This document shows, piece by piece, positions 25,501 through 52,224 of a stretch of DNA of 64,000 bases. Source of the DNA: Histomonas meleagridis (taxonomy: Eukaryota; Parabasalia; Tritrichomonadida; Dientamoebidae); the NCBI GenBank assembly GCA_020186115.1, contig WSYJ01000186.1:682001-746000 (forward strand), given 5' to 3'. Made by a program: the position numbers and the translations under genes. The notes under the pieces were generated by a model, which had not been told where the DNA came from, ran no database searches, and worked only from the letters and a program-made list of their open reading frames with translations. How positions within the stretch are numbered: the stretch's first letter is position 1; every line of letters begins with the position of its first letter.

Positions 25501-27693
25501 ATGGACATTCCTTGCAAAAGGCTACATGAAAAATTTGGGGATTTCTCCCCAAATTTTGATGTTGCTTTTGGTGAGCCAATTGAACTTAAAACAAATATAT
25601 ATCCAATTATATCACAATTAAAAGAAATATACACGTATTCTTTTGAAATCGAGCCAAAAACAGAAGACACAAAGAGCATACTTGATTCTCTTCTTTTTAA
25701 AGAAGATGGCGAAAATTCCAAAAAAATGTTAATTTTATACGATAAATCAAAAATATTTTCGACTGTTTCTGATTTAGAATGTCAAAGAAAAATTCCAATT
25801 GAAGGAGATCCATCTAAAATAGTTACAATCAAAATTGATAAAATTGATAAAATCAATGAAACAGAAATATTATTTTCCCTCATAGAAGAAATTCTTCCTG
25901 ATATATATAAATCAGCTGGCTATACTTTTCTTCAATCTGGTTGGTATGATCTTTCCAGTTCAATCAAACATGTTAATTCTAACATCATTTCTGGCTTTAA
26001 ATCAACTGTTGTCTCATTCAACGGTTCTCCTGCAGTAAGTGTGTCAAACATAAAACTTGTTACGCAAGGGATAGCATCTGAATTTCTTCAATCTGGAGTA
26101 TCAAATGTTAATCAACGAGAAGATCTTTTTGTAGCAATCAATCAAATGACATTAGTTACTAGTTTGACAGACCCTTATTCCATCATAGTCCCTTCCAGAA
26201 TAGTATGGGATCCACAAGCAGAAAATCTCCAATCGAAAATATCGCCAAACTCAGAAATTTCACTTTTTGATTGCTATCAGCAAGCATTTCACTTCACAAT
26301 TCAGCCAAATGAACCGTTTATTGAAACTTCTCAAAATAAAATCCAAAAATTTTATCCAACATCATCCATTACTATTGTTGGACCTACTGTAGCTGATAAA
26401 AAGTTGACAGAAAGATTATCAGAAATCAATATAAATGTTTTTGATATTGATAAATTAAATAAAATTGATTCTAAATTCGGGATTAAGTTTAATGAAAATA
26501 TTATTGTTAATGGAAATGTTATTGAACCACCACAATTACAAATGAGATCACGTCAACCTGGTAATAAAGCATGTGTTATTTCTTTAAATAATAAATATTC
26601 TATTTATCAATACACTGTATCTGTTCCACCATATCTTCGAACTAATCCATTATTTATATTTTATAATTCTATCAATAATGAAACTCGAAAATCAATACTT
26701 CAAACCTTTGATAACACATCGAATAAAATTGGAATTCCAATTCCAACACCAAATTTTATTGTAATAAATGAAAGTAATGAAAAGAATTCATTTGAAGAAA
26801 ACATAACGAAATATATAATCGAAAAAGGAACTCCATCATTTATAATTGTTATTTATAAAAATCAAATTATTAATCGTTCATATTTTCGATATTTACTTAA
26901 TGTTGAATTTGGAATTCCATTTTTGTTTTCTACTGAAGAAGAAATATTAACAAATATAACAAAAGTTTTATTTAAAGTTACATTAATTACTGGCGGAATT
27001 CCATTTTATATTTCGCCTAATTCTCTTCCACTTAAAAGTACAATGGTAATTGGTATTAATTCATCATCTAAACAATTAAATGCTTTAACAAGTTCATACG
27101 ATTTTACTTTTTCACGATATTTTTCGACTGTTATTAAGAACGAAGAAGAAAATTCATTTATTAGTTCGGAAACATTAAACAATTTTATTCAAAAAGCAAT
27201 TTCTTGTTATAATGAACATTCGGAACATAAATTAACAAGAATCGTTATATATAGAGAAGGATTAAATATAGAACAAATGGATTTTATTAAAAAAGAATTT
27301 GATACAATAATCGAAACTATTAATAATAAAAATGTTTCAGTCGTTTATTGCATTGTTGAAAGTAATTCTGATTTAAAATTATTCGGTGCTAAAAATGGAA
27401 CAATTGTTTTGGATAAAGTGCAGAACGAAAATTTGGAAAAATTCTTTTTGGCAATAAACGACTCTGAAGATCCAATCAAATTTACTTTGGCCCAAAGTAC
27501 GGGAAATGTTTGGAAGAAAGAACATTTCGCAAAGTTAACATACTACTTAACTTATTGTTATAACAATGATGAAACAAGATGTAATGCGCCAGCGCCTTTG
27601 TTTTGTGCTTCAAAATTGATCGAATTTTGTAAAAAGGAACTGAACGGTGAAAAGCCAAATGAGCAACTTAATATATATGAACATTATTTGTAG
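25501..27693 (+). CDS. Argonaute/PIWI-family protein with substituted slicer residues
   Basis: A 730-residue ATG frame. The second half is a PIWI domain in order: strand MVIGINSSSK (about 515-524), RIVIYREGLNIEQ (about 581-593), VSVVYCIVE, NGTIVLDKVQ and LTYYLTYCYNND...NAPAPLFCASKL (about 683-706). This follows Argonaute (IGID, YRDG, PGTVVD, LTY.LCY, PAP.YYAH). The catalytic tetrad is DEDH. Here the first Asp is N520, the next Asp is E586, and the His is S704, so cleavage is doubtful. PAZ and N domains are weak by eye. It could still bind small RNA and recruit partners. RNAi components are known in trichomonads. A closely related active copy may exist elsewhere. Confidence 0.8.
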   Translation: MDIPCKRLHEKFGDFSPNFDVAFGEPIELKTNIYPIISQLKEIYTYSFEIEPKTEDTKSILDSLLFKEDGENSKKMLILYDKSKIFSTVSDLECQRKIPIEGDPSKIVTIKIDKIDKINETEILFSLIEEILPDIYKSAGYTFLQSGWYDLSSSIKHVNSNIISGFKSTVVSFNGSPAVSVSNIKLVTQGIASEFLQSGVSNVNQREDLFVAINQMTLVTSLTDPYSIIVPSRIVWDPQAENLQSKISPNSEISLFDCYQQAFHFTIQPNEPFIETSQNKIQKFYPTSSITIVGPTVADKKLTERLSEININVFDIDKLNKIDSKFGIKFNENIIVNGNVIEPPQLQMRSRQPGNKACVISLNNKYSIYQYTVSVPPYLRTNPLFIFYNSINNETRKSILQTFDNTSNKIGIPIPTPNFIVINESNEKNSFEENITKYIIEKGTPSFIIVIYKNQIINRSYFRYLLNVEFGIPFLFSTEEEILTNITKVLFKVTLITGGIPFYISPNSLPLKSTMVIGINSSSKQLNALTSSYDFTFSRYFSTVIKNEEENSFISSETLNNFIQKAISCYNEHSEHKLTRIVIYREGLNIEQMDFIKKEFDTIIETINNKNVSVVYCIVESNSDLKLFGAKNGTIVLDKVQNENLEKFFLAINDSEDPIKFTLAQSTGNVWKKEHFAKLTYYLTYCYNNDETRCNAPAPLFCASKLIEFCKKELNGEKPNEQLNIYEHYL

Positions 27694-28245
27694 ATAAATT
27701 GTTCTTTATTATATATATTTTTATTATAATTATTGAGAACTTTTTCTGAAATTTATTTTATTTTCAAAACATTAAGCATGAAAAAGTGAAAAAAAAAATC
27801 AATTTTAATGATACTAATTCATAACTGATTTGCAACATTAACTAAATTTGAATTCTACATTTCATAGTTTTGAAGGAATGTTGCTTGTAGTTAGTAACAT
27901 TATTGATAATTATAGGAAATGATATGATTATCGCTTGTTGTTAAAAATGATTTGTTGATTACGTTTTTAAAACTATTACATGTGCATGAAAAATGGTATA
28001 TTGGCATTTGAAATCTCCATAGTCTTTTAAGAATTCATTTGGATTTAATAAAATGGAAAGATCTTTTATTTTTGAATATAACTAGGAACTGGTGACAGCA
28101 AATTGATATCTTTGCTACCTCATTTGTTGGTGGGTCAGTCAAACATGAATTCACATGTGAACCTCACCTAACATTTTTCAATGCTTTTAACGTTAAAAAT
28201 ACCTAATATTTTTCAATGCTTTTAACGTTAAAATATTTTTCTGTA
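27694..28245. other. Intergenic region with a 33-bp direct repeat before ankyrin head 1
   Basis: AT-rich gap. Near its right end a 33-bp sequence is tandemly duplicated with one mismatch (28166-28198 and 28201-28233), each copy carrying TTTTTCAATG and TTTTAACGTTAAAA. This probably spans the transcription start of the ankyrin gene. The second copy contains an in-frame ATG at 28216. Confidence 0.55.
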
Positions 28246-29583
28246 ATGATGGATGATACTTATAGCCCTGTTAAGTCCCCAAAGAAAAAAGTAGCTACTA
28301 AAGACCAAACAATTTGCTTAGAAACACTTCATGAGCTTGAACAAATTATATTTGATTTAACAGATCAAAATCTTGAAAATTCAATTGAAAAAATAATGAA
28401 AATATATACTTCTAATTTAGCACATTCATTAAATATTATAATAGCTCACATGGTTTACTATTCATTTTGTTCACGAAATAACGATATTAATATTTATTTT
28501 AATTTCATTAAAAAAATCCAAGAAAAAGAAAATGAAACTGATAAAAATATTGATCCGCAACTAGGTGAAATTTTTAATGATTATATAACACATATGAATT
28601 CACAAGAGTCATATTATATAATTGAGAAAATGATACAACAAAATTTAATTGATGCAAATGTAGCACAAAACAAATATTCGAATTTTTTTTCACATTATAA
28701 AACAGAAAAAGAAAATAAAAGAAGATGGAACATACCTGATAAAATAGATGAAAATGATCATTCGAATAATATCGAGCAGATAAAAGAATTGATTAAAAAG
28801 TATGAAAAACTTTCGAATAATGATTGGGAACTTCATAAGAAATTAATTGAAGAAGGAAACAATGAAAGTGAAATTGCACAAATAATTCGAAATGATGACA
28901 TTAAGAAACTGAAAAAAATATCATCAAAAAATGAATTTAATTTTGATCAAAGAATTGATCAATCAATATATGAAAGAAATTCATTTCTTAATGGTTGCAA
29001 TGTTACATTAATTAATTATGCAGCATATTTTTCAGCAGTTAAATGTTTTAAATATTTAATGGAAAATGGTGCTGATCTTGAAAACACAGGAAAATATGCT
29101 GTTGCTGGTGGAAGTTTAGAGATTATTCATTTATGTGAACAAAATCATTCATCATTTGAAGGTTCATATGAATGTGCAATTAAAAGACATCAAAATGATA
29201 TCTTTCGTTATGTCTTTAAATATAAATTAGAAAAAATTAAAGATACATCTAAAGGAAGAAAGAAGAAAAATAATTCAATTCTTGTAGATTTAATTGATTT
29301 AGGAAATTATTGTATTAAATATGAAAATTTTGATATCTTATTATATCTGATAAAGAAAGGATTGAAGTATAGTAATATATTAGTTAATGAAGCAGCAAAA
29401 AATGGGAATTTATATCTCATCAAATATTATCTTCCAAATAGTTCTATGCCCAAAAAGATTTTGTTTAAATCAACAAAATCCGGAAATTTCGAACTTGTTA
29501 AATTTGTTCTTGAACTAAAAGGTATTGATATTAATTTGAAAAATATCATTTTACTTTATATAAAACTTGTTTTAATGTTTTAA
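28246..29583 (+). CDS. DUF3447-ankyrin protein, head segment 1
   Basis: I place the start at the ATG at 28246 (MMDDTYSPVKSP), though an in-frame ATG at 28216 would add ten residues from the duplicated promoter. The helical N-terminus carries repeated LEQIIFDL, NSQESYYIIEKM and ELHKKLIEEG segments, then the DUF3447 region: NVTLINYAAYFSAVKCFKYLMENGADLENTGKYAVAGGSLEIIHLCEQNHSSFEG. A first ankyrin-type repeat (NFELVKFVLELKGIDINLKN) follows. The frame then runs into the first inter-unit spacer and stops at 29583. Read alone the product is about 445 residues. I believe it continues through the array below. Such proteins are a large trichomonad family of unknown function, likely protein-binding. Confidence 0.8.
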   Translation: MMDDTYSPVKSPKKKVATKDQTICLETLHELEQIIFDLTDQNLENSIEKIMKIYTSNLAHSLNIIIAHMVYYSFCSRNNDINIYFNFIKKIQEKENETDKNIDPQLGEIFNDYITHMNSQESYYIIEKMIQQNLIDANVAQNKYSNFFSHYKTEKENKRRWNIPDKIDENDHSNNIEQIKELIKKYEKLSNNDWELHKKLIEEGNNESEIAQIIRNDDIKKLKKISSKNEFNFDQRIDQSIYERNSFLNGCNVTLINYAAYFSAVKCFKYLMENGADLENTGKYAVAGGSLEIIHLCEQNHSSFEGSYECAIKRHQNDIFRYVFKYKLEKIKDTSKGRKKKNNSILVDLIDLGNYCIKYENFDILLYLIKKGLKYSNILVNEAAKNGNLYLIKYYLPNSSMPKKILFKSTKSGNFELVKFVLELKGIDINLKNIILLYIKLVLMF

Positions 29584-32500
29584 AATTTAATAATAATGTT
29601 TAAAAATTATTAATATTATTTCAAACAGTTCTTATGTTGGCATCACAAAATGGTTTCACAAAGATTGTAAAACAATTCCTTAAACAAAAAGGAATCGATA
29701 TTAATACTAAAGATATATATTTGTTTTATTTAATGTTTATTTTAATCATTTTATCCTGTTTTATAATAATATATGAAATTTATTTAAACTATTTGATACA
29801 GCACTTATAAAAGCAGCACGATCTGGTCATATAGGAACAGTAAAATTACTTCTTAAACAAAAAGATATTGATATTAATGTACAAACTATTTAAACATTTT
29901 ATTTAATGTTTGTTATAATAATAATGGGTTTCAATATAATGTTTGGAACTTATTATAATGATTTAGTACAGCATTTATAGAAGCATCTTCAAATGGTCAT
30001 ACAGAAATAGTTGATTTACTACTGAAACAAAAAAATACTAATTATAAAATTAAGAATTTTTATTCATTTTATACAATATTTGTTTTAATAATTTAATATT
30101 TATAAATAATATTTGGAATTTATTTGATAATTTTAATACAGGGTTCATGATGGCAACTCAAAATGGTCATTTTGAAACAGTTAATTTCCTTCTTGAACAG
30201 AAAAAGATTGATATAAACGCTAAAAATATTTTTTGGTTTTATTTCAAATTCAATTTAATGATTTAATATTTTAAATTAAAATTTGGATTTTACTTAAATT
30301 ATTTGATACACCATTTATGATGGCAGCTGAAAATAATCATATAGAAATAGTTAAACTATTTCTTGAACAAAAAGGAATTGATATCAATGCTAAAAATGTA
30401 TATTTGTTTTGTATAAAATATAATTTTCTTATTTAGCATTTTAATATAATATTTGGAATTTCTATGTATTATTTGATACAGCACTAATGAAAGTTGCTGA
30501 AAATGGTAAACCGAAAATGTTTAAATTACTTCTTAAACAAAAAGGAATTGATATAAATGCTAAAAATATTTATTTGTTTTATTTGAGATTTATTTTTATA
30601 ATTTTATATTCCAAAATAATATTTGGGAATTATATAAATTATTTGACACAGCACTTATTTATGCATCAAAAGGAAGAGGTTCTTGGCACAACGGTGTTTA
30701 TGTAACAAATAAAAATCTTTTAAAAATAGTTAGTATGCTTCTTGAGCAAAAAGATATTGATGTTAATGCTGTGAATATCAATTTGTTATATTTAAAATCT
30801 ATTTTATTAGTTTAGTATTTCAAAACGATATTTGGGAATTATTTCATTAATTTAATACAGCACTTGTTGCTGCATATTCAAATAGAAATACAGATATTGT
30901 TCAGTTACTTCTTCAACATGGAGGAATTGACATTAATAGAGATAATGTTTATTAATTAAATAAGATAGTATTTCAAAATAATGTTTGGAAATCATTTAAT
31001 TTATATGAAACGGCACTTATTTGTGCTGCTGAAAATAGTCATGTTGATATAGTTAAGTTTCTTGTTGAGCAAGAATCATTTGATATCAATGGTGGTAATG
31101 TTTATTTATTTTATTTGGTGTTTATATTAATAAGTTCAGGTTTCAATAAAATATTTGGAAATTGTTTGTATTATTTGGAAAATCACTTGTAAAAGCATCA
31201 CAAAATGGTAATATCGAAATAGTTAAATTACTTCTTGAACAAGAAGGAATTGATGTTAATTTTGTCTATGGTATTAATTCGTTTTATATTATGTTTATAT
31301 TGGAAAATCGAAATTTATAAATCAAATTTAATAATTATTTATAATATTTGACACAGCTCTTTTAGCAGCATTGAAACGAGAGAAATTAGATATAGCTGAA
31401 TTACTTCTTCAACATCAAGATATTTATATAAATGATAAAGATTTTTCTTTTATTTATTTAGAGTTTATATTATTAATTTAATATTTCTTAATATTATTTG
31501 GAAATCTTATAAAATATTTGATAATGCACTTATGATAGCATTAAGAAAAGGTTATATAGATATAGCAAAGAAACTTGCACAAAAAGAAGAGCTTGATTGT
31601 AATGCTCAAAATATTAATTTTTTTAACAAGATATTTGTGTTAATATTTTAATATTTAAAGATAATATTTGGAGATTATTTAAATTATTTAAAACAGCACT
31701 TATTTTAGCAACCGAAAAAGATTATACAGAAATTGCTGAAATACTTCTTGAAAAAGAGGATATTGATGTTAATATTAGAGATATTTATTTAGTTTATTAA
31801 ATATTAATTATAATAATTTAATGTTTCAAAATAATATTTAAGGATAATATATAATGTTTAATACAGCACTTATTAATGCATCGAGTAAAGGTAATCTTTT
31901 AATAGTACAATTAATTATTGATGATGGAGCTAATATTAATGATGAAGATATTCAATTGATTTATATAAAATTTGCTTCAATAACTTCAAATTTCATAACA
32001 ATATTTGGAAATTGTTAAAGTTATTTAATAAAGCACTCATTAAAGCAGCTCAAAACGGTCATGCAGAAATAGTTGAATTACTTCTTGATCAAGAGGGAAC
32101 TGAAATCAATGCCATAGACCAAATTTATTGATTTTATTTGAAATTGGATTATATAATTTTGGAATGTTTAATAAAGAATTTCAAAAATTATTTCAAATAT
32201 TTAAAACACCTCTTATTTACGCTGCTCAAAATGGTCATGCAGGAGTTGTTAAAATACTTCTTAAGGAAAAAGATATTGATGTTAATGCTCGAGATATTAA
32301 ATTATTTTATATAATATTTAATATAATAATATAATATTTCAAAATAATATTTCAAAATTATTCAAAATATTTAAAACAGCACTTATGTATGCAGTTGAAA
32401 ATGGTCATGAAGAAGTTGTTAAAATGCTTATTAAACATAAGAATATATACATCAATGCTAAAGATATTTGTTTGTTTTATTTGGCGTTTATTATAATAAT

Positions 32501-33628
32501 TTTGGAACATTTTAAAATAATATTTGGAGATTATCTAAAATATTTAATACAGCTCTTACATATGCATATAGAAATGGACATATTAAAATTGCTGATATTC
32601 TTATTGAAAATGGTGTTTATAGTAATCCTGAAAACATTTAATTTATTTATTAAGAGTTAAACAATAATATTTAAAAATTATTTTAATTATTTAGTGATAC
32701 ATTAGTATCAGCTGCGAGAAATGGTTATATAGAAATAGTTAAATTACTCCTTTCGAAGAAGAAATTTGATATCAATCCTAAAAATATTTGTTTAATATAT
32801 TTAATATATATTATAATAATTTTGTTATATTTAATAATAATATTTAATAATGCACTCGTTAGTGCAGTCGAAAATGGATGTATAGAAGTAGTTAAATTAC
32901 TTCTTAAACAAAAAGAAATCGATGTAAATACTACGAATGGTATTTATTAATTATAATTCGAATATCTTTCAATGATTTTGGGATATTTCAAAGCAAATTA
33001 TAAAAATCATTTAAATAATTCAAAACTCCACTTATGAAAGCATCTGAAAGTGGTTATATTGAGATAGTCAAATTACTACTTAAACAAAAGGGAATTGATG
33101 TTAATCTCAAAAATATTTATATTTTTATTACAATATTTACCTTAATAATTTAATATTTCAAAATAGCATATGAAAATTATTTAACTTATTCGAAACAGCA
33201 CTCATTTTAGCACTACGAAATAATCACCTTGAAATAGTTGAATTACTTCTTGAGCAAAAAGGAATTGATGTTAATGTTAAGTATATTTATTTTGTAGTTT
33301 TCGTGTTTCAAAATAATATTTGGAAATTGTTTGATGTTTTTAATACACCACTTATTATTGCACTGAAAAAAGGTCACATTGAGATTGCTAAATTAATTCT
33401 TGGTCAAAAAGGAATTGATGTCGATATAAAAGATATTTAAATATTTTGTTTGGCATTCATTATAAAAATTTAATGTTTAATATTTTCTTTGGGAAATTAT
33501 TTTAATTATTTAACACAGCAATGGATTATGCATATGATTATGGTTATGATGAAATTATCAATTTAATAAATAAAATTAAAGAAATGGAATCAATTTCTAG
33601 CAAAAAACATAAAAAAAACAAAAAATAA
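29584..33628 (+). repeat. Array 1: 24 ankyrin-unit tandem array with stop-bearing spacers
   Basis: The array has 24 units, spaced about 145-210 bp and mostly 166-175 bp. In each, one 31-33-codon frame encodes an ankyrin repeat: F-x-T-A/P-L, variable middle, GH-EIVKLLL-Q-G-I-D-I-N-A-K-D/N-I. Every unit is open in that frame, though their sequences have diverged widely. One (about 30647) even carries a 36-nt in-frame insertion. The spacers, about 65-85 nt, contain TAA/TGA stops or change frame, start near TATTTGTTTTATTTG and end near ATTTGGAAATTATTTAAATTATTT. The last unit (33509-33628) has its own Lys-rich tail and TAA. The simplest reading is one multi-part gene with the head at 28246. Confidence 0.75.
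33509..33628 (+). CDS. Array 1 terminal unit with Lys-rich C-terminus
   Basis: A 39-residue end segment in the ankyrin frame: FNTAMDYAYDYGYDEIINLINKI, then a charged tail ending HKKNKK and a TAA. It keeps the unit start but replaces the usual G-I-D-I-N end with a unique tail, as the natural C-terminus of a DUF3447-ankyrin protein would. It has no start codon of its own, so it only makes sense if joined to upstream units. Confidence 0.6.
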   Translation, partial: FNTAMDYAYDYGYDEIINLINKIKEMESISSKKHKKNKK

Positions 33629-35862
33629 ATAAAAATCATTTTTCATAAATATATATGTTTACCTTTTTGATACAGTTGTAAAAATATTTTATCTTTGAAT
33701 GGAATAATTGATCAATATCGGTATGTTTGTTTATAATATATAAGTTGAATGTTTTCATAAAAAAAAATTATATGATCAATTGATTTAACAACACAAGAAA
33801 ATGTTTAAATTAACAGTTGTCGAAACAATGATTTCCCGTATTCTTTTAATTTTACTATTTGTTATTTGATTATTACATTTTATTCACGGTTGAAGCTTTT
33901 AGTGAAATTTTTTGCGAAATTATCGAATTCTTCTTGTCAATTGAAAAATTTGAATAGTTTATTTGTGATATGGTACACACCGAAAAAACCTTAGGAACTA
34001 TTTCTTGCCACATGGTGAATAATTCACATAGTTACTAAGAGCAAAGAGCAACCCAATAAATTGCATTATTGCTATAAAAAACAAAAAACAAAAAATAAAT
34101 GTGGGGAAATTTTATGCAAACATTATCATTTCCTCCTGAAAAATGCAGTTGCTGTAGCTGATACTTGGTTGGCAGAAAGAGTATTGAGGAGGAATTTGAT
34201 TATTTTTCTGTTGATTTGTAGAACTTGGACGTGAGTACCGCTTAAGGCGACGACCAAGCTCAGCAGAACTTCTACGAAACAATTCTACTTGAGGTTGACA
34301 GATAGGTGCATCGAAAATAGATATTGTTTCGGAGGTCGGGCTGCTGAAATCCATTTGGATCAAAAGGAAAGTCAACCGCTCGATATCTCAAATGTTCAAT
34401 GCGAAATTTTGGTTTTTTGTAACGATTTAAATCAAATAAACGGCCGAAATCTAGGCCACCCCAAAAAATTGTTACCAAATGATGCCAAACATGTGGCAAA
34501 ATACATTCATTAACAAGATTTTTCCGATATAAAATTTGTGAACATGAAGGTTAAAACAAGAATTTAGTTTTTAATTTACTTTTTACTTTAATTTGAAAAA
34601 ATATCTTTAATTGACCAAACGTATCTTTACAAATGCCTAAGTACAAATAGCATGATCGAGTGAACAAGGCAACAAAGAAGTTGACAAAATTTCGGTTTTG
34701 AAATGAAAATTGAAACTTAAAAAATCAAAATGATTCTAAGTAACACGAGCAAAAATAAAATATTATAGTAATCCTTTGAAAATAAGAACCTTTTAGGATC
34801 ACATTCATCTGAAAGATTGAGTTTGTAAATGATAGGAAACTTCCATCCTTGTTTAATAAAATATTTTGTAAATTTTGAAGTGCTCTTTAACTTTACTTAT
34901 AGAATTTGACACAAATACAGACTCAAAATTGTTTATTGAATTTCCTTCTTCATATTGTTTTCGTGTTCACATTCATCTTGAACTAATCATTTTATTATTT
35001 TTATTGTGGCAAATTAAATAAATAACAATAATGACAATTACTATTAAAATTAATATAAAAACTACGATAACAATTTTTATATATTTATTCTTATTTTCTT
35101 TATTTTGTTATTTTATTGGATTAATTATTGTGAAAAAATTTGAATAAAAATCATAAATTGCTGAATAGTATACAACAGTATAATTATAATAAATAATATT
35201 GGTATAAATATAAGTTGCCTTTGAATCAATCATATAAAATGTAATAGTACTCAAATAAAATGTTTTTTTGAATAATTGTAATTGAATATAAGCCATAAAA
35301 AATATATGAATTTGTTAATATTAAACCAAATGGAAAAGAAATTGTAAATGTATTTGATCTTGTAAATGAATTTGATCCCGTTAATGCATCTGACTAAGTG
35401 CATATGTTCGATTATGAAAATGTATTTGTAGCGAAATTAAGTCGAAATCTAAATAATTTTCCTATGTTATCTGCTTTGTCAACTGGAGCAACAAGAATAT
35501 ATTTTTGATTGACAATATCTTCTGTATTAAATTTGATAGTATTATTAGATATTTGATTTTATTTTTTGAAACAGCATTAATGGTTGCATCTAAATTTAAT
35601 TGCACTAATATTGTCAATTTCCTTCTTGAACAATGAATTAATATCAATAACAAAACATTTCATATTTGTAATAAATATATAGTATTTAAAAATTATATAT
35701 GGAATTTATCCAAATTATTTAAAGCTTCACTTATATGTGCATCTATGTATTATATTTTTTGAATTTATTTTATTGATAATGAAATTTATTGTATTTCTTC
35801 TTCTAGTGCTACTATATTGTCACTTTTTGCAGTAACGTTATTATTGGCACTTTTCCCCTCAG
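33629..35862. other. Long intergenic region with an ankyrin relic
   Basis: Over 2.2 kb without a gene I can support. Minus-strand open frames at 34112-34375 and 34272-34499 overlap and show composition less biased than random AT-rich DNA (LGRRLKRYSRPSSTNQQKNN), so a small frame-broken gene is possible, but neither ends in a recognisable family and the second starts with TTG. 34940-35450 is extremely AT-rich. A decayed ankyrin unit lies at 35565-35763. Confidence 0.4.
35565..35763 (+). pseudogene. Solitary decayed ankyrin unit of the array family
   Basis: FETALMVASKFNCTNIVNFLLEQ is followed by an in-frame TGA (35634-35636) and then INININ. A spacer-like ATATATGGAATTTATCCAAATTATTT leads into a second truncated unit (KASLICASMYYIF) with a stop. 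No DUF3447 head is nearby. It is clearly a relic of the same family, now without coding constraint. Confidence 0.65.
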
Positions 35863-36527: not shown

Positions 36528-37694
36528 CTAAAATATATATTTTATTATTTCGCCCGACAAAAATTCATCTATTAATGTGTTTAATCTTTCCTCCGACAAA
36601 AACAATTCAGTTCCATTTTCGAAGCCGATTTCCTCATTGCCCAACAAGTCCACATATACAGAAGGCACCAAAAACAAATAAAGTTTTGGATCAAATCTTT
36701 GTCTAAACACCAAAAGTATTCTTGAATGCAACAGATTTAAATCCATTGCTACGTGTAAGTCATCTTTTGAATTTTTATAATATTCAACAAGAAGTTGATC
36801 GATTACAGTTCCGTCATGAAAACTTATAACATATTCTTTTTCTCTAGTGGAAAGTTGATAACAAAGGTTATACGGTTCTTTACCGAAATACAAAAAGTTT
36901 TTCGGAAGTTCTATGAATTTAAATGGTTCGAAATTATATTCGTTACCATCATATTTTATATTATATCTTTTACATAAAGTTTCATTTAATAATTCTGTTT
37001 TCCAATCAATATATTCATCAGAATTATTATTACTTAAAGCAAAATATTCAACTAATCTTATTCGCCTTAAAAACAAATTTAATTCTTCTCCATTAATTTC
37101 ATTTATATATTTATTCTTTATCTCATTAAATTTATTCTCAGGTAAATCACATTTTACCAAATCTAAAACAAAGTTCTGGAAAATCGAATATGTTTTTATA
37201 TTAAACTCAGGTTTTTTCATTAAAATAACTTTCAAATTTAAAAAGAAATTTCGCGCTAAAATTATATATTTTTTCGGTTCCAAACAATATAAATTTGATC
37301 TTAATCTTAACTCATATATTATAAATATACTACAAAACGCAATTAATATTTGATTTATATCTTCAAATTCTTTTTCGAATTCATTAACAGAATTAATTAC
37401 ATTTTCATCATTTAGATCAGTCCTATTATCAAGTTTAGGTAAACAAATGTTTCGTAGATATCTATCAATAGGACATGATAAGTTTAAACATTTCGAATGT
37501 ATTAAATGTGTACATAATGTAAAACATTTTATTTGTTCAATTGTTCCATAATTATCATACTTTAAAGGTAATGTCGAATTATACATATAAAGTGGATAAC
37601 AAAGAATTTCATTATCATTAAGACAAGTTCTGCATGCAGAACATTGTTCAATTTCTTCTGCTGAATCACTTTCATCAAGATCAATGTTATTATC
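36528..37694 (-). CDS. UBR-type E3 ligase, RING and C-terminal domain (third fragment)
   Basis: From about 37694 the frame reads DNNIDLDESDSAEEIEQCSACRTC, then a RING-like run IKCFTLCTHLIHSKCLNLSCPID, then helices and a C-terminal domain ending FLVPSVYVDLLGNEEIGFENGTELFLSEERLNTLIDEFL. This parallels the RING plus UBLC end of UBR1/UBR2 (PYLDEYGE...GLRRGNPLYLNEERY). It has no ATG at its true beginning; the first is at 37586, inside the RING. It is therefore the tail of the gene above, shifted by one base at an A-run (about 37695-37700). Confidence 0.7.
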   Translation of the reverse strand, partial: DNNIDLDESDSAEEIEQCSACRTCLNDNEILCYPLYMYNSTLPLKYDNYGTIEQIKCFTLCTHLIHSKCLNLSCPIDRYLRNICLPKLDNRTDLNDENVINSVNEFEKEFEDINQILIAFCSIFIIYELRLRSNLYCLEPKKYIILARNFFLNLKVILMKKPEFNIKTYSIFQNFVLDLVKCDLPENKFNEIKNKYINEINGEELNLFLRRIRLVEYFALSNNNSDEYIDWKTELLNETLCKRYNIKYDGNEYNFEPFKFIELPKNFLYFGKEPYNLCYQLSTREKEYVISFHDGTVIDQLLVEYYKNSKDDLHVAMDLNLLHSRILLVFRQRFDPKLYLFLVPSVYVDLLGNEEIGFENGTELFLSEERLNTLIDEFLSGEIIKYIF

Positions 37695-37980
37695 TTTTTT
37701 CGAATTGTTCCATTTTGGTATTAAATGATTGTAGAATAGATGACTTTAAATCTTTTAATTTATTATTCGATGTTTTAGTTTCATTTGTTTTAGGTATTTC
37801 ATATGAAATATTCATTTGCACAAGTGCATTTTGTCCAATTGGACCTAATTCACTTATTAAATCGACAAATGATTTTGGTCTATAACTTTGGAATTGATAT
37901 TTTTGATACATTAAAGATTCGAAATCATTTGGAATTTTCGTAATTAATTCTTTAATATCATTAACTATAATTGTATCAGT
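37690..37980 (-). CDS. UBR-type E3 ligase, middle fragment
   Basis: This frame (LTDTIIVNDIKELITKIPNDFESLMYQKYQFQSYRPKSFVDLISELGPIGQNAL) continues from the N-terminal fragment after a one-base shift near 37981-37993 and ends at a TAA at 37690, where another one-base shift leads into the RING fragment. Its composition and the position between UBR box and RING fit the helical linker of UBR proteins. Removing one base from each homopolymer would restore one continuous frame. Confidence 0.6.
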   Translation of the reverse strand, partial: TDTIIVNDIKELITKIPNDFESLMYQKYQFQSYRPKSFVDLISELGPIGQNALVQMNISYEIPKTNETKTSNNKLKDLKSSILQSFNTKMEQFEKR

Positions 37981-40093
37981 TAAAATTTTTATTCGAAGTT
38001 TTAACATAAAATTTCGATGCTGTTAATAAAAGATTTATTATAAGTTGATTTGTTTCTTGTGAATTTTGACTTAATAAAATATAATATTCGATAGCTAATA
38101 ATGTTGGCGTAAATAATAACGAATGTAAATCCATTCCAAATGGTTCTTCAGTGAAAGGTTTAAAAGGCATTAACTCATTTGGATATTTAGAAATATATTT
38201 CGAATAAATCGATAAAATTTGATTTGATTTATAAAGTGGCGCTAATGGATCCCATAATGTTCTAGACTTCAACTTAAATATTACACCATTTGGTGATGGA
38301 GAAGAAGTTGAAACAGTATCCAAATGATTTTTAATAACTTTAATGTTATTTATCCTTTCATCTTTAAATATTTTTTTAAATGACTTATATAGTTTTTGTC
38401 GGAATAATAATTTTGTGATTACCATTTGATTTATTTTTTCATTTATATTTTGATTAATTTCTATTCGATCAAATATTAAAGTAGAAATAAAATGTATAAA
38501 AATAAAATGAATTAAATCACTTTCCTGTAATGTTTCATCAAATATTCCAATAGTATATGCAATAGTATTAATCATTTTTTCTTTATTTTGTGTTAATCCA
38601 AGACAAATTTGCATTAATACAAATAAATTGGAATAAACATTTGTAGAAACCAAATCAAATTTTAAGAAATATGAAAACCCAAAACAACATGTTAACATTT
38701 GATGGCAATAAAAATCTAATGAAATCAATATACGCTGTGTATTTAAAGAAGCAAGTAATAAAAAGTTATCAACATCATTAATAGTATTATTTAGAATTGC
38801 TTTAATATTTTCTTTTGGTTGCAATAATATAGATTTAAATAAGAAAAACGTTGGTTCATATAATGAAATCGAACAACCTTTAAATAATGAAACATTAATT
38901 AAATCATTAACATAAAGTGACTTTAAATAACTTTCGAATTTTATAATTGAATTTTTAATATCTAAATTTTCACATTTCTCAAATCCGTTAAATACATCCA
39001 TAGCTTCTCTGTTATAATAGTTATACAACATAAATCGATTTTCTTGTGTTAGTTCCTGAATATTTGTACATAAAATTGCATCTTTATCTAAAACTAATTC
39101 AGTTAAACAATCTAATAATCGTTGATGTTCATTTTTAAAAGTTTCTTTTGTTAAAATTATTTTGATTGCTTCAAAAAATGGGAAATCATTTTCATTAAAT
39201 ATAGGATCTTCATATAAGTTATTATCATGTGCAAGTGCAAATTCTTTTTGTTGATATAGTTTTGTTGTGTCTAAGAAACATTTACAAAAATCAAAATGAT
39301 AATGCTCAGAACAATATTGAAATATATAATCAGATGTAAAATAAAAACCTAAATTCATTAATGGATCTATTTTTCGATATGAATCATTTCCACTTTTTAT
39401 CATTTCATATGTATAATTTATGAATTTCGAAAGAACATTAAAATATACATAGCCAAATGTAAACTTAAACTCGCTGTCATTAATACAACAGCCAAATAAT
39501 TCAACTAGTGAATTAATAGATTCTGAATCAGCTTCAAAACAGGAATCAATAATATCAAAATATATATTCCCTTTGCTTAATGATGCAACAATCAAACTTC
39601 GATATGCATCTCCAATTTCACAAAAAGCAAAAAGCCAATCAATCAATTCAATGGCACAATCTGGATCAGTTTTAAGAAACCCGGGGAGATGTGATGCGAC
39701 GGAATCAAAAATTTGTGGAAGAATGCTTGATATTGATGTTGGAATATCGGAATCCGAGATTTGGTGATTATGAAGAATGCAATTACCTGACGGCTTCCAT
39801 TGAAATTGGTCGCCACAATCACAATTACCAACTGTGTCTGTTGAAATAGAAATCGAATGACCTTCATGATTGCCATTTAAAAAACACTGAAGGCAAATAC
39901 AAGATTCATCTCCTGCTAAAGTGCAATCTTCACATGCAATAGATAGTTGCGGTTTAGTCCAAGTTGCTTGGCATTTACAAACATGTGTATTATCATGGAG
40001 ATATTTGAGAAGGTCAGAAAAATTTGTAAACTTTGCGTGTTCGCAAAGAATTGATTCCCAAACTTGAATCATGTATTCAGCATTATTTTCCAT
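37976..40093 (-). CDS. UBR-box E3 ubiquitin ligase, N-terminal fragment
   Basis: A 705-codon ATG frame. Near the N-terminus (about 35-110) is a clear UBR box: CKCQATW, IACEDC, DESCICLQCFLNGNHEGHSI, GNCDCGDQFQWKPSGNCILHNH, with all the Cys/His zinc ligands. UBR boxes bind N-degrons (basic and other N-terminal residues). Long helical regions follow. The frame ends at a TGA at 37976, but the protein clearly goes on in the next frame through a linker to a RING. Together the three fragments span 36528-40093, about 1,190 codons, and would form one UBR1-type N-recognin acting in the N-degron pathway. A TAAACGTTCTT element lies upstream of the start. Confidence 0.8.
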   Translation of the reverse strand: MENNAEYMIQVWESILCEHAKFTNFSDLLKYLHDNTHVCKCQATWTKPQLSIACEDCTLAGDESCICLQCFLNGNHEGHSISISTDTVGNCDCGDQFQWKPSGNCILHNHQISDSDIPTSISSILPQIFDSVASHLPGFLKTDPDCAIELIDWLFAFCEIGDAYRSLIVASLSKGNIYFDIIDSCFEADSESINSLVELFGCCINDSEFKFTFGYVYFNVLSKFINYTYEMIKSGNDSYRKIDPLMNLGFYFTSDYIFQYCSEHYHFDFCKCFLDTTKLYQQKEFALAHDNNLYEDPIFNENDFPFFEAIKIILTKETFKNEHQRLLDCLTELVLDKDAILCTNIQELTQENRFMLYNYYNREAMDVFNGFEKCENLDIKNSIIKFESYLKSLYVNDLINVSLFKGCSISLYEPTFFLFKSILLQPKENIKAILNNTINDVDNFLLLASLNTQRILISLDFYCHQMLTCCFGFSYFLKFDLVSTNVYSNLFVLMQICLGLTQNKEKMINTIAYTIGIFDETLQESDLIHFIFIHFISTLIFDRIEINQNINEKINQMVITKLLFRQKLYKSFKKIFKDERINNIKVIKNHLDTVSTSSPSPNGVIFKLKSRTLWDPLAPLYKSNQILSIYSKYISKYPNELMPFKPFTEEPFGMDLHSLLFTPTLLAIEYYILLSQNSQETNQLIINLLLTASKFYVKTSNKNFN

Positions 40094-40212: not shown

Positions 40213-41460
40213 ATGAGAGGAAGCCCTTCATCAGCCAAATTCAAGGAAAACCTTCAAATACTACAACAACTTGAGAAGATTATTTTTGACTTAAACGAAG
40301 GTAACATAATTCAATCAGTTGAATTATCATTAAATTATTTCACAGAAGATTTTTCATATTCATTTTTTCATATTATTTGCAGAATTATTTATTCATACTT
40401 TATTTCAAAAGGTTTTGAAAAAATATGTTTTGATTATTTACAAAATCTTGAAATAAAGTCAAATAAAAATCTAAATATAATTGATATTTTTACTCAATTT
40501 CTATTTACAATTGATAGCCAAGAATCAAATTATCTTCTCGAAAAAATGATTGAAAATCAATTAATTGATACGAAAATTTTTCATGATAAAAGGTCTTTAT
40601 ATTTTATTCATTACTCACAAGTAAAGGAATTTGTCGAACCTCTTAAGGAAAAATATGAAGAACTTTCAAAGAACAATTGGGAACTTCATAAGAAATTAAT
40701 GAAAGAAGGAGTTAATCCAAATAAAATCTCGAAAATAATTCGAAATGATGAAATCGAACAACTTCAAGAAATATCATCACGAAATGATTTTGATTTTAAT
40801 CAGTGCATTAAACCATCACTTTATGAAAGATATTCATTAGTCGATGGGGGAAATGTTACATTAATTGATTATGCAGCATTTTATTCTTCTATTAAATGTT
40901 TTAAATATTTACTTATGAATGGAGCAAATGTAAATAATACAGGTAAATATGCAGCTGCAGGAGGAAGTGAAGAAATCATTCATTTATGTGAACAAAATCA
41001 TTCATCATTTGAAGATGCATGTGAAACAGCAATTAAATTCCATAGAAATGATATCTTTAAATATATTTATGATAAAAAATTAGAACAAATTAAGTTAGGT
41101 ATATTAGGAGAAGTATGTATTTTATATGATAATTATAATATTCTTTCATTTTTAGAAAAAGAAGGTTTAAAAATCAATAAAACTCTTATCATTGATTCGA
41201 TGAAAACAGGGAATATATTTATTTTTCTCTATTTCAAAGAAAAAGCTTCTCGTTCAATTTCTTTATATTTAGGCGAAGTTCCGAGTTTTTGTGGCAATAA
41301 AGAATTTTTTGGATACCTTATTAATCTTAATTATTTTAATAATAAAAAAAATTTATTACATTTAGCATTGAATAATATAGTTGAAGAAGGTCATACAGAA
41401 GTCGCTAAATTACTTCTTGAACAAGATGGAGTTGATATAAATATTGTGGTTATTCATTAA
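40213..41460 (+). CDS. DUF3447-ankyrin protein, head segment 2
   Basis: ATG at 40213, 415 codons. Same plan as head 1: LQQLEKIIFDLNEG, IDSQESNYLLEKM, NNWELHKKLMKEGVNPNKISKIIRNDEIEQL, SLYERYSLVDGGNVTLIDYAAFYSSIKCFKYLLMNGANVNNTGKYAAAGGSEEIIHLCEQNHSSFEDACETAI, then ankyrin repeats ending HTEVAKLLLEQDGVDINIVVIH and a TAA that lies in the first spacer. The DUF3447 core is nearly identical to the other two heads while the N-terminus and middle differ, so the family evolves by point change in some parts and conversion in others. Protein-binding role assumed. Array 2 follows at once. Confidence 0.8.
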   Translation: MRGSPSSAKFKENLQILQQLEKIIFDLNEGNIIQSVELSLNYFTEDFSYSFFHIICRIIYSYFISKGFEKICFDYLQNLEIKSNKNLNIIDIFTQFLFTIDSQESNYLLEKMIENQLIDTKIFHDKRSLYFIHYSQVKEFVEPLKEKYEELSKNNWELHKKLMKEGVNPNKISKIIRNDEIEQLQEISSRNDFDFNQCIKPSLYERYSLVDGGNVTLIDYAAFYSSIKCFKYLLMNGANVNNTGKYAAAGGSEEIIHLCEQNHSSFEDACETAIKFHRNDIFKYIYDKKLEQIKLGILGEVCILYDNYNILSFLEKEGLKINKTLIIDSMKTGNIFIFLYFKEKASRSISLYLGEVPSFCGNKEFFGYLINLNYFNNKKNLLHLALNNIVEEGHTEVAKLLLEQDGVDINIVVIH

Positions 41461-42689
41461 ATTTATATAAAATTTGTTAAAATATTTTGATGTTTTGAGG
41501 CATTTCAAGAAGCATTTATTGTAGCATCTAAAAATGGACGTATAGAAATAGTTGAATACTTTCTTAAACAAGAAGGAATTAATATTAATTATCAATATAT
41601 TTGTAATGATAATTTTTTGTTACAAAATAATATTTGGAAATTGTTTAATATATTTGAAACAGCACTTTCGTTAGCATCTGAAAAAGGTCATACAGAAATA
41701 GTTAAATTACTTCTTGAACAAAAAGGAATTGATATTAATGCTAAAGATATTTATTTGTTTTATTTAAAATTTACTTTAGTAATTTTGGATATCAAAATTA
41801 TATTTGGAAATTGTTTAATATGTTTCGAACAGCACTTATGTTAGGATCTGAAAAAGGTCAAACAGAAGTCGTTAAATTGCTTCTTGAACAAGAAGGAATT
41901 GGTATTAATGTTAAAGATATTTGTTTGTTTTGTTTACAATTTATTTTAATAATTTGATATTTCAAAATAATATTTGGAAATTGTTTAATATGTTTCGAAC
42001 AGCACTTTCGTTAGCATCTGAAAAAGGTCATACAGAAATAGTTAAATTACTTCTTGAACAAAAAGGAATTGAAATTAATGCTAAAGATATTTGTTTGTTT
42101 TATTTAAAATTTACTTTAGTAATTTTGGATATCAAAATTATATTTGGAAATTGTTTAATATGTTTCGAACAGCACTTATGTTAGGATCTGAAAAAGGTCA
42201 AACAGAAGTCGTTAAATTGCTTCTTGAACAAGAAGGAATTGGTATTAATGTTAAAGATATTTGTTTGTTTTGTTTACAATTTATTTTAATAATTTGATAT
42301 TTCAAAATAATATTTGGAAATTGTTTAATATGTTTCGAACAGCACTTTCGTTAGCATCTGAAAAAGGTCATACAGAAATAGTTAAATTACTTCTTGAACA
42401 AAAAGGAATTGATATTAATGCTAAAGATATTTATTTGTTTTATTTAAAATTTACTTTAGTAATTTTGGATATCAAAATTATATTTGGAAATTGTTTAATA
42501 TGTTTCGAACAGCACTTGTGCTAGCATCTGAAAAAGGTCATAAAGAAATCGTTAAATTACTTCTTGAACAAGAAGGAATTGATGTTATTGCTAAAGATAT
42601 TTGTTTGTTTTATTTGGTAAATATATATTTTAGTAATTTGACATTTCAAAATGATATTTGAGTTATTTGGTGGAGAGAATCTGATTTAA
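41461..42689 (+). repeat. Array 2: seven ankyrin units, homogenised 340-bp dimers
   Basis: Units begin near 41507, 41659, 41829, 41999, 42169, 42339 and 42509. From the third on the period is exactly 170 bp. Units 3 and 5 are identical over their 170 bp, and units 2, 4 and 6 differ at only about two bases, so a 340-bp dimer has been copied very recently. Each unit is one open ankyrin repeat (TALMLGSEKGQTEVVKLLLEQEG), with a spacer that changes frame because 170 is not a multiple of three. The last spacer ends before TTT GGT GGA GAG AAT CTG ATT TAA (42666-42689), a short terminal coding end. Confidence 0.8.
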
Positions 42690-49209: not shown

Positions 49210-52200
49210 TTAAAGTGTTGCTTCTCCATGCAATAAAACATCAAATGGTTCTGATATATTTGACGTGAACTTCAATTTCCCGTAAAAATATCCAACTTTA
49301 GTTGGCTTAAATTGAATGGGAAACATTACGTAACATTTTGGCTCTATAACAAATGAAGAAATTGGTATAAAAAATGGTTCTTCGACAGTCGATACAATAT
49401 GACATTGTTTATTTGATCTGTTACAAACTTTCAATCTCATTTTTTGTGTTTTCCCAAGTTTACATGGAAGGAATTCATAATTATCAGAATAAACGCCAAC
49501 AATTTTTTTCTTTTCGTTTGAAATCGATTTTCCAATTGTTCGTAAAGTTTCGGTTTGGCCGTTTGTTTCAATTTTGAATGTCTCATTGAAATTGTATGGA
49601 ACAAACGGCGAAAATTCAATGCTAAATTCGGTTTTTTCCATTGCGTTTATTTTTATCGAGATCGGATATTTAAAAGGGCTTTTGCCGATTTCCCAGTTTC
49701 TTTTAAGAGGCAGAAACCTTAATATTATTGGTTTGTTACATAAATTCGTTGCAATAATATTAATTTTTCTGTTTCCTCCAACTTCGCAAATTCCAAAATC
49801 AATATTTTTTTGGTTCAATTTAAACAATTTCCTTTTCTTTATACAAAAACTTGAATCATCGTCAATCACATTTATGGGTACTTTTATGATTTCATCTTCT
49901 GATTTAATTTCAATTGATGATGTAACTTTACCAAAAATTTTGACTTCTAATTCCGTTTTAGAATAAGGTTGAATGATTATATTATTTGGTTTAACTCTAA
50001 TGTTTTGTGAATACGTAATAATAGAAATTGGAATTGGTATTGATGACATATTTATAACATTTAAAAAATTTGTTTCATCTCCAAAAAACCGTAATTTTGA
50101 AGGTTGAACGATAATACTTTTTGAAGAAGATTTAATCGGAAAACAAAGAAAAAGTTTTTTTATGTGGATCAACTTTTTAAATACTGAATTGAATTCCTTT
50201 TTTTCGATTAAATTTAAATATTTCGAAATCGAACTAATTTCATTGCTATCAGTCATCCATTCGAATGTTTTAGCAAAAAAGTCATTTGGATATAAAAAAG
50301 CTTTAATTTCTCTTAAGATTTCATCACCAAAATACATTGCAATTGGAATTCTTTTGCCAGGTTCATGATGAGAATTAACAACAAATTCGAATGTTGCTGA
50401 AGATTTTGGATAAACCAAAGAAGAAATTGGATTTACATTTATAATGAAATCATTTTTTGTTTCTGCAGTAAAAACTACAAAAGCTGTTCTATTACCATAA
50501 TTTTTAACTTCGATTTTTGTTGAGTATTGATTAACATCTGAATAACAAAGTTGAAATGATTCATCACAATAAATATCACTTTCATATTTATATGCAATGA
50601 TTGGAATATATTTAGAAAGTGATTCTTGAGAAGAAACTTCTATTTCTTGTGCTAAAACAGAACTTTGAAATGGTTCACATTCGATGTTAATAGGTAAATC
50701 GACTTCAACATTTTCACTAATCAAAAAACATTTTGGAATCTGAAGTTCAAAAGAATTAACTCCTGAAACGACAAAAGATTTTACATTAGGTTCATTATCT
50801 TTCACGTTATTAAATAAAATAAACGATGGAACCACTTTTATTATATCTTCTAATTCATTTTCTTCTTCTTCTTCGAATAAGTCATCGCTAAATAAATTAT
50901 TGTCTGTTATCATTTCCTCTTCCTCTTCTTCTTCGTCAATTGTTACAGAATAAAAATCTGTCACATCAGATTTATTATCACGAATTAATGTTATATAAAA
51001 TGATTTTTGATTTTGTAAAATGTTTTTTATATTAATTGTTTCTTTTGATTTAATATCAAATAAATGTTGATCATTATCAATTTTTAACAAAAGTTTTATC
51101 GACAAATTACTTATGTTTATAATAGTTGTTCCTCTAATTTCATATGGAAGTTTTACACATTCACCTAAAAGTTCAATGTCATTATCAATTCCTTTAAGTG
51201 TTGTTTTATATAATTTTTCTTCTGTTGGTTCAAATACGATTATTGAATGTGTGTTTTCTGTAGTAAGATAAAATGGTGGGAAAATTTGATTTTTAAGTAA
51301 ATTCGAATTCTTGAAATCAAAAAATCTTTTGCTAATGTTACCAACGGATATTGACCCAAAATCAATGATTGTTGTTGTTCTAGATTTGATGATTTTTAGC
51401 GTTCGTGTGATAATATCTCCAGTACTTTCACATTTTAATATAAATTTTGGTTTATTAATTTCTTTTTTTGTAGAATTAAATGTTATTAAAATAGGAATTG
51501 TAGATGAAGGACCAATATCAAAAATAGTTCGATTTAAATTAAAACATGATGATTCTATTGATGCTTTAATTCGTAATGTTGAAGATCCTTTATTAAAAAC
51601 AAAAATCGTATTTTGAGAAGTTACTCCTTCATAAAAAACCCAGCATTGATCATTTTGTGGAGAGAGCTCTAATGGCGAAGAAATGCATTCTCCTATAATT
51701 GGAACTGATGTTTCTGTTTTTCCTTGAATTATTAATTCTGATAAATATGTTTTTGGTACAAGTGGAGAAAAAGAAACAAGCAAAGATTTAGTACTAAAGG
51801 GTTCTACTTTAGTGCTTGTTTCTTGAATTGAAAATGAAGGATCAAATTGTATCGATAATTTTATCCATTCAGTAGAATTTCCAGAGTTAGTGATTAGAAT
51901 TTTCTGGTATGCTATTGAATTAGGAAAAATTGGTGTGAACTCAATTTTCGATGGAAAACATAAAATACATGAATCATCTCTAAAGTCTGGAATGAATGAT
52001 TGGGTATTTTCTATTTCAACCTGCTTATTAATTTTTTTTGAAGGAATTTCGTGTATTTCAGAAATCATATATTTTGAGTCTGCTTCCAAGTTTGAAATAA
52101 GATTCTCAATGGAATCTTTAGTAGAACCATCACTTTCAAAGACTGATATCAAATTCATTGTTTTTAGCATATCGGAATCACTTGATACATTGTCATTTTC

Positions 52201-52224
52201 AGGTTTTGTTTTCCCATTTTTCAT
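49210..52224 (-). CDS. CEP192/SPD-2-like protein with repeated ASH (PapD-like) domains
   Basis: A 1004-residue ATG frame. After an acidic, low-complexity N-terminus (about 1-75) it has many beta-sandwich repeats of ASH/HYDIN type: FPSKIEFTPIFPNS...ILITNSGNSTEWIKL, VVPSFILFNNVKDN, and the last EPFFIPISSFVIEPKCYVMFPIQFKPTKVGYFYGKLKFTS...LLHGEATL. The last block is very like the C-terminus of CEP192 (PxSHSYxxLPVxFKP...G). An acidic insert (DEEEEEEEMITDN) lies near 440-450. CEP192/SPD-2 recruits pericentriolar material at centrosomes; in trichomonads it would be at basal bodies or the atractophore, which is inferred. HYDIN-like or CFAP47-like proteins are alternatives. Confidence 0.65.
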   Translation of the reverse strand: MKNGKTKPENDNVSSDSDMLKTMNLISVFESDGSTKDSIENLISNLEADSKYMISEIHEIPSKKINKQVEIENTQSFIPDFRDDSCILCFPSKIEFTPIFPNSIAYQKILITNSGNSTEWIKLSIQFDPSFSIQETSTKVEPFSTKSLLVSFSPLVPKTYLSELIIQGKTETSVPIIGECISSPLELSPQNDQCWVFYEGVTSQNTIFVFNKGSSTLRIKASIESSCFNLNRTIFDIGPSSTIPILITFNSTKKEINKPKFILKCESTGDIITRTLKIIKSRTTTIIDFGSISVGNISKRFFDFKNSNLLKNQIFPPFYLTTENTHSIIVFEPTEEKLYKTTLKGIDNDIELLGECVKLPYEIRGTTIINISNLSIKLLLKIDNDQHLFDIKSKETINIKNILQNQKSFYITLIRDNKSDVTDFYSVTIDEEEEEEEMITDNNLFSDDLFEEEEENELEDIIKVVPSFILFNNVKDNEPNVKSFVVSGVNSFELQIPKCFLISENVEVDLPINIECEPFQSSVLAQEIEVSSQESLSKYIPIIAYKYESDIYCDESFQLCYSDVNQYSTKIEVKNYGNRTAFVVFTAETKNDFIINVNPISSLVYPKSSATFEFVVNSHHEPGKRIPIAMYFGDEILREIKAFLYPNDFFAKTFEWMTDSNEISSISKYLNLIEKKEFNSVFKKLIHIKKLFLCFPIKSSSKSIIVQPSKLRFFGDETNFLNVINMSSIPIPISIITYSQNIRVKPNNIIIQPYSKTELEVKIFGKVTSSIEIKSEDEIIKVPINVIDDDSSFCIKKRKLFKLNQKNIDFGICEVGGNRKINIIATNLCNKPIILRFLPLKRNWEIGKSPFKYPISIKINAMEKTEFSIEFSPFVPYNFNETFKIETNGQTETLRTIGKSISNEKKKIVGVYSDNYEFLPCKLGKTQKMRLKVCNRSNKQCHIVSTVEEPFFIPISSFVIEPKCYVMFPIQFKPTKVGYFYGKLKFTSNISEPFDVLLHGEATL

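Follow-up and report, generated by a model that had tools for sequence, protein, structure and literature searches.

How can two dozen ankyrin repeats be read as one protein when the DNA between them breaks the reading frame? The question is raised by a locus of Histomonas meleagridis, a parasite of turkey, at positions 28216-33628 of the window, that is, of the whole stretch of 64,000 nucleotides (nt) analysed here, which covers positions 682001-746000 of its contig; the genome searched comprises 43.28 Mb in 121 contigs. An initial annotation had described a DUF3447 head followed by 24 ankyrin units that stay open, separated by spacers that hold stops or change frame. The order of the parts, up to a stop at 33626-33628, and, by reading, the frame-breaking or stop-bearing nature of the spacers were both borne out. 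These spacers are not the featureless gaps of that description; instead, they consist of 17-nt elements (17-mers) with single codons between them. Arrays of this family carry a 17-nt ruler, lone codons free of stops, repeats under coding constraint, and elements that lack GT-AG borders. Judged from the sequence, each array is probably one ankyrin gene whose 17-mers are removed from RNA like ultrashort introns.

A typical unit of 170 bp comprises a 34-codon ankyrin repeat (102 nt) and four AT-rich 17-mers, arranged as N-A-K-D, 17-mer, x, 17-mer, x, 17-mer, G, 17-mer, x-T-A-L. The three lone codons complete the ankyrin turn D-x-x-G-x-T, and the repeat consensus D-x-x-G-x-T-[AP]-L in 33-34 residues is matched solely with the 17-mers left out. 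Column statistics over the 170-nt unit give the same picture, with three 3-column islands separating four conserved 17-mers. In the window array, the head is an open reading frame (ORF) at 28216-29583 on the forward strand, encoding 455 amino acids, with Pfam matches above the curated cut-offs to Ank_2 (36.1 bits; cut-off 27.3) and DUF3447 (28.2 bits; cut-off 26.9); Pfam matches were obtained for all three heads of the window. Its start is ambiguous (28216 or a later ATG, for instance near 28246), and its open frame continues into the first interruption until a stop at 29583. Segmentation assigns 92 elements in total to this array, whose parts are as follows.

28216-29544 (+): head, DUF3447/ankyrin N-terminal region, with its last repeat core at 29452-29544
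29545-29621 (+): junction 0, 17-mers 29545-29561, 29565-29581, 29585-29601 and 29605-29621, lone codons AAA, AAA, AAA
29622-29794 (+): unit 1, core 29622-29714, 17-mers 29715-29731, 29735-29751, 29758-29774 and 29778-29794
29795-29964 (+): unit 2, core 29795-29887, 17-mers 29888-29904, 29908-29924, 29928-29944 and 29948-29964, lone codons AAT, TGG, GGA (N-W-G)
29965-30134 (+): unit 3, core 29965-30057, four 17-mers 30058-30134, lone codons N-N-G
30135-30304 (+): unit 4, core 30135-30227, four 17-mers 30228-30304, lone codons Q-N-G
30305-30474 (+): unit 5, core 30305-30397, four 17-mers 30398-30474, lone codons K-S-G
30475-30644 (+): unit 6, core 30475-30567, four 17-mers 30568-30644, lone codons E-Y-G
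30645-30853 (+): unit 7, core 30645-30776 including a 39-nt in-frame insertion, four 17-mers 30777-30853, lone codons K-S-G
30854-31006 (+): unit 8, core 30854-30946, three 17-mers 30950-31006 (the first missing), codons V-S-G
31007-31176 (+): unit 9, core 31007-31099, four 17-mers 31100-31176, lone codons G-Q-G
31177-31349 (+): unit 10, core 31177-31269 with an added codon, four 17-mers to 31349, lone codons Y-E-N
31350-31519 (+): unit 11, core 31350-31442, four 17-mers 31443-31519, lone codons R-N-G
31520-31689 (+): unit 12, core 31520-31612, four 17-mers to 31689, lone codons D-N-G by fixed offset (free segmentation cuts otherwise)
31690-31859 (+): unit 13, core 31690-31782, four 17-mers 31783-31859, lone codons N-N-K
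31860-32026 (+): unit 14, core 31860-31949, shorter by one codon, four 17-mers 31950-32026, lone codons K-Q-G
32027-32202 (+): unit 15, core 32027-32119 with additional codons, four 17-mers to 32202
32203-32372 (+): unit 16, core 32203-32295, four 17-mers 32296-32372, lone codons N-N-Q
32373-32545 (+): unit 17, core 32373-32465, four 17-mers to 32545
32546-32692 (+): unit 18, core from 32546, one codon short, about three 17-mers, the worst fit in the window array
32693-32845 (+): unit 19, core 32693-32785, three 17-mers to 32845
32846-33021 (+): unit 20, core 32846-32938 with additional codons, four 17-mers to 33021
33022-33191 (+): unit 21, core 33022-33114, four 17-mers 33115-33191, lone codons N-N-E
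33192-33341 (+): unit 22, core 33192-33284, three 17-mers to 33341, lone codons R-G
33342-33511 (+): unit 23, core 33342-33434, four 17-mers 33435-33511, lone codons G-N-G
33512-33628 (+): terminal unit, partial repeat ending in a separate lysine-rich tail and a stop at 33626-33628, no 17-mer

The in-frame insertion of unit 7 had been noticed before, with a length of 36 nt that alignment corrects to 39, and the separate tail and stop of the last unit are as first described.

The array is one of many. A genome-wide DNA query gave at least 173 matches (best 40 of 1767 candidates scored); those listed, grouped by eye, fall in 39 places outside the window, 20 of which were taken for analysis. Together with the three window arrays they form a set of 23 arrays with 281 units, 258 of them non-terminal, and with 3 to 25 further repeats detected after each head. 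The head itself found at least 95 matches at 93 loci, and among these (best 93 of 5642 candidates scored) 93 of the 94 non-self matches are 46-55% identical and one 41%.

Across these arrays, 209 of 258 junctions have an insert of 68 nt beyond the 34 codons, and 15 have one of 51 nt; 19 of the remaining 34 deviate from these sizes by whole codons. Segmentation, which allowed elements of 16-19 nt, had the arrays as its training set and is biased towards 17, which makes it descriptive more than a test; it yields four elements in 230 junctions, three in 25, and two, one and five in one each, entire elements being present or absent, and 991 of 1003 elements are 17 nt long. Lengths alone prove little, because 17n+3m fits nearly any number. 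The weight of the 17-nt evidence lies in the positions of the stop-free, variable and Gly codons. In the 209 four-element spacers, none of the 627 lone codons is a stop, where column make-up alone would predict 4.9 stops at the first variable codon (x2) and 16.1 at the second (x3). The third lone codon encodes Gly in 179 spacers, while x2 is mainly N, K, D, I, E or R and x3 mainly Y, D, N, W or R. Column diversity is 0.138 in the 17-mers versus 0.448 at x2 and 0.576 at x3.

Similar elements occur in ordinary ankyrin genes. The independent test set consisted of 26 TPLH ankyrin loci outside the array family, ten of them picked for short open frames, a choice that biases the share of interrupted genes. 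At contiguous junctions of such genes, Gly precedes x in 54 of 71 cases. Fifteen junctions, in 8 of the 26 loci, are interrupted at the same turn as in the arrays, and the spacing from Gly to x is exactly 17 nt in 8 of them, 18 nt in 1 and 19 nt in 2, with none at 12-16 or 20-23 nt. A further 17-nt case, in the ordinary ankyrin gene L052, lies outside that filter. Counted over the ordinary loci plus two array-family loci, insert sizes are 17 nt (3 junctions), 19 (1), 34 (4), 35 (2), 51 (3), 52 (1), 54 (1), 68 (5), 69 (2) and 0 (64); a handful of others show small changes by whole codons, and missed repeats account for three larger gaps. The ordinary loci, independently of the arrays, agree with the narrow length range (15-17 nt) of uniform ultrashort introns.

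That the units encode protein is indicated by their resistance to stops, which the initial annotation had rightly stressed: 254 of the 258 non-terminal units are stop-free. The four flagged units belong to L011, L028, L015 (its near-identical copy, L016, being intact) and the window array, where the stop of unit 18 falls in the first 17-mer because that unit lacks one codon. When array consensuses were mutated neutrally to the divergence observed, an average of 46 of the 115 units acquired a stop (never fewer than 34 in 500 runs), as compared with 1 among the actual units; for 21 window units the mean is 14.3, again versus 1. This test excluded ten arrays (including one of the other two window arrays) whose majority consensus holds a stop at mixed variable codons, as well as arrays with fewer than three inner units. 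Length changes point in the same direction. Aligned to one consensus, cores change by multiples of three except in L015, in compensated pairs, perhaps noise of the alignment, and at core borders, where the split is ambiguous (including two +1 cases in L025); spacer changes include -17, -16, -1, +1 and -4. L015 and L016 (C88), about 29 kb from each other, hold the same array in opposite orientations; their units are near-identical, with a 1-nt shift in a unit of one copy. Decay of the arrays into pseudogenes could draw on the few flagged units and on internal stops in 21 of the 95 head matches, some perhaps located in the first 17-mer, which was included in the query. The neutral expectation, the stop-free lone codons and a ratio of nonsynonymous to synonymous substitution rates (dN/dS) of 0.62 at 29 codons of the diverged window array make it highly improbable.

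This ratio comes from the comparison of rates that the initial annotation had proposed. Pooled between units, dN/dS is 0.64 in the window array and ranges from 0.6 to 3.3 over 21 of the 23 arrays. In 12 units of the window array, five variable codons reach 1.63, against 0.62 at the other 29; over 181 units, repeat sites 2, 3, 5, 10 and 13 give 2.34 and the other 29 codons 0.80. The five sites were chosen for apparent variability, which makes the contrast partly one of construction, and site 14 (2.64) is counted among the other 29. Positions 2, 3, 5, 13 and 14 are those randomised in designed ankyrin libraries. Close unit pairs within one array (67 pairs, not independent) differ on average by 3.4 of 152 other bases; two- or three-base codon differences occur at x5, x10, x13 and x3 in 21-40% of pairs, at x14 in 6%, at x2 in 4%, and at the 27 other core codons in 0.3%. 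Among close units of L009-L028 and the window arrays, a single surface codon is often changed by two or three bases while the rest is near-identical. The codon pattern fits strong diversifying selection together with recombination that homogenises the remainder; a targeted mutator is not needed, though one may exist.

Such hypervariable surface codons amid an alike framework and 17-mers, with close units often differing by 2-3 bases in one codon, would also suit a silent reservoir of cassettes, kept open by recombination into an expressed gene. All 258 array junctions contain 17-mers, and an assembled array was accordingly not seen; one family member, L058, has a single contiguous junction. 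The presence of the elements in ordinary ankyrin genes and, by reading, the final unit with its own tail and stop in 16 of 23 arrays also speak against a reservoir, which is quite unlikely. Both alternatives named in the initial annotation, reservoir and decay, fit the data less well than one gene per array.

Pooled array 17-mers read A-T-T-T...A-T-T-T, roughly R-T-T-T-n9-W-T-T-T, with 94.7% A+T. The 27 elements of ordinary genes have G (59%) or A first, then mostly TTT, and end mostly in TTT, none in AG; at positions 9-11, A is the commonest base or level with T. Ambiguous cuts in these genes were placed in favour of such ends. The trichomonad spliceosomal intron has the motif GTATGT...ACTAACACACAG, and neither part is present in the spacer consensus. 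Within the genome, the 12-base intron end ACTAACACACAG has three matches. L030 is a complete canonical 71-nt intron in a gene judged DHHC-like by eye; L031 has the 3' end only, with an open kinase-like frame (by eye) behind it and no GTATGT-type start within 200 nt; and L029 is without a visible gene. A search for non-coding RNAs detected U2 twice, and U6 at 43.7 bits, slightly below the cut-off of 44.

The initial annotation had envisaged one gene with many tiny exons. Its direction holds, since the units show coding constraint, the end of the head coincides with a unit border and a separate stop closes the last unit, although the exon borders were drawn too coarsely. In that version, each spacer would be one ordinary intron of about 71 nt between exons of about 99 nt. 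The exon-intron period and the existence of a complete canonical intron of this size in L030 agree with it, yet it accounts neither for lone codons that are free of stops and ankyrin-like, nor for the conserved Gly, nor for ordinary genes interrupted by a single 17-mer, and the consensus lacks the trichomonad signals, so that this version is very improbable. Borders drawn from stop positions, with one 71-nt intron per spacer, were superseded by the 17-mer parse. A conserved CAG was also considered as a 3' splice site and rejected, because it belongs to the T-[AP] codons.

Plain translation of the spacers fails, because type-3 17-mers carry a phase-0 stop in 192 of 209 cases. The same stops count against translation with a frameshift in each element, which would insert a linker at each turn; one backward slip would bring a 17-mer to six codons and most 17-mers end in TTT, but the 19-nt element of L057 would require the opposite shift, and the proposal is barely credible. 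We infer that the cell must somehow cut out or skip the 17-nt stretches, and the splice signals checked give no explanation. In translational bypassing, the mRNA would retain the 17-mers and the ribosome would skip each, reading the lone codons. Every element can be cut between whole codons (phase 0, with a one-base ambiguity), which suits a codon-aligned device; the lack of GT-AG also favours bypassing. In known bypassing, however, take-off and landing codons match, whereas here, by reading, D/N, x2, x3 or Gly stands before the gap and mostly TTT at its end. With about 90 hops needed for the window gene, bypassing is unlikely.

Removal from RNA is preferred because no other simple route to one reading frame was found. 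Under this reading, each gene would consist of a DUF3447 head, 3 to 25 further repeats and a short tail where the end is seen. The turn D-x-x-G-x-T would be split by usually four 17-nt elements, leaving x2, x3 and Gly as 3-nt pieces, so that a repeat would comprise an exon of about 93 nt plus three of 3 nt. Excision of the elements from the transcript, as a new class of ultrashort introns, would join the repeats into a long binding protein. Selection may have diversified a few surface codons, while repeats would be added, lost and homogenised by recombination.

Several observations weigh against removal of 17-nt introns. Only 3.7% of array 17-mers start with GT and none of 836 ends in AG; U1 was not found in the genome; and no conserved fold was detected over the 77-nt junction, in a test of the junction as a whole as distinct from pairing within each 17-mer. 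Fifteen of the 258 gaps fit neither 68 nor 51 nt plus or minus whole codons, the junction at 53973-54040 of the third window array does not parse in the 17-mer scheme, and 12 of 1003 elements measure 16, 18 or 19 nt, perhaps through assembly errors in T and A runs. The training of the segmentation on the arrays counts here too, and units within one array are not independent. In ordinary genes, 4 of the 15 interrupted junctions have no Gly at any tested length, including 17-19 nt. Additionally, three elements in a probable second organism total 51 nt and could be read through. Without GT-AG borders or a conserved fold, the 17-mers fit no known machinery. It is possible, as a tentative proposal, that an RNA excision or decoding system other than the GT-AG spliceosome handles them, measuring about 17 nt and isolating single codons. 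As x2 and x3 rank with the most diversified repeat positions, the layout would then allow recombination within alike AT-rich flanks to exchange repeats or individual codons with the frame kept, giving a modular repertoire of binding proteins.

Relatives of the head were sought in a protein collection, which returned 13, two of them named Histomonas meleagridis; one of these stops at the D-I border, where the 17-mers start in the arrays. The 11 others are at most 60% identical to the Histomonas heads examined, and five of them (P0001, P0002, P0006, P0007 and P0010) stop at the same border. P0008 is probably from another species, because its best-scoring genome match is 51% identical and none among those listed exceeds 57% (best 93 of 9529 candidates). 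In a second search with 44 hits, at least 9 of 12 short ORFs examined read through such elements, with the peptide pattern NAK-x-x-VYFNN..FQNNIW..FKLF-x-TAL or a close variant. If the source of these ORFs is another species, the elements would be older than this genome. The read-through ORFs say nothing about removal, because they were collected for happening to be open.

Two further arrays of this family, likewise with the 17-mer layout, lie in the window.

40213-42601 (+): second array, head 40213-41460, 8 units detected, usually with four 17-mers in a 170-bp unit
51992-55646 (+): third array, head 51992-53518, 14 units detected

Near-identical units alternate in the second array, with a 340-bp period. 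At 28166-28233, just upstream of the head start codon of the first array, there is a 35-bp direct duplication with TTTTAACGTTAAAA, possibly a promoter element. A Piwi-domain protein is encoded upstream of that array (25501-27693), and a solitary ankyrin-unit relic with an in-frame stop inside lies at 35565-35660. The UBR-box gene at 36531-40093 (-) occupies three overlapping frames, split by what look like two 1-nt shifts in A runs (possibly errors of assembly), and contains no 17-mers. The LRR_5 family does not look interrupted, because just one copy among the best genome matches listed bears a stop, although this ranking favours intact genes.

If the elements are removed as proposed, the consequences would be considerable. 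The available part of the published account gives about 11,000 Histomonas genes, 5.2-5.7% of them intron-bearing, with at most one intron each (PMC8529796). In such a lineage, some genes would then be interrupted up to about 90 times by stretches that lack GT-AG and rank among the shortest known, and some of their exons would measure 3 nt; splicing would be probed at its lower limits, or a different form of RNA removal would come to light. The published gene set would also seem to truncate or miss much of the array family, given at least 93 head loci in the genome versus just two proteins named for this species.

No description of these 17-nt elements was found in literature on Histomonas introns and ankyrin genes or on 17-nt introns, mostly short of full text, and the search on 17-nt introns turned up mikrocytids only. 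From the portions of the reports available, mikrocytids have uniform ultrashort spliceosomal introns of 16-17 nt and Stentor of 15-16 nt (PMC10245619, PMC9505925). The likeness lies in a nearly fixed length at the lower limit and, for Stentor, in AU-richness. Stentor introns mostly start with GU and end in AG, whereas no Histomonas element ends in AG; mikrocytid introns were checked against transcripts. Euglenid nonconventional introns are alike in having no GT-AG, but they pair at their ends, as the accessible text states (PMC11170887), and the Histomonas junctions gave no consensus fold. Trichomonad introns are present in the same genome, with other signals and in other genes. In the ankyrin and DUF3447 families, Pfam matches and repeat consensus are alike, while the coding of the Histomonas repeat is interrupted inside the turn. 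Unlike the introns of mikrocytids and Stentor, the Histomonas 17-mers found here stand four in a row, with one codon between them, at one spot of one repeat fold.

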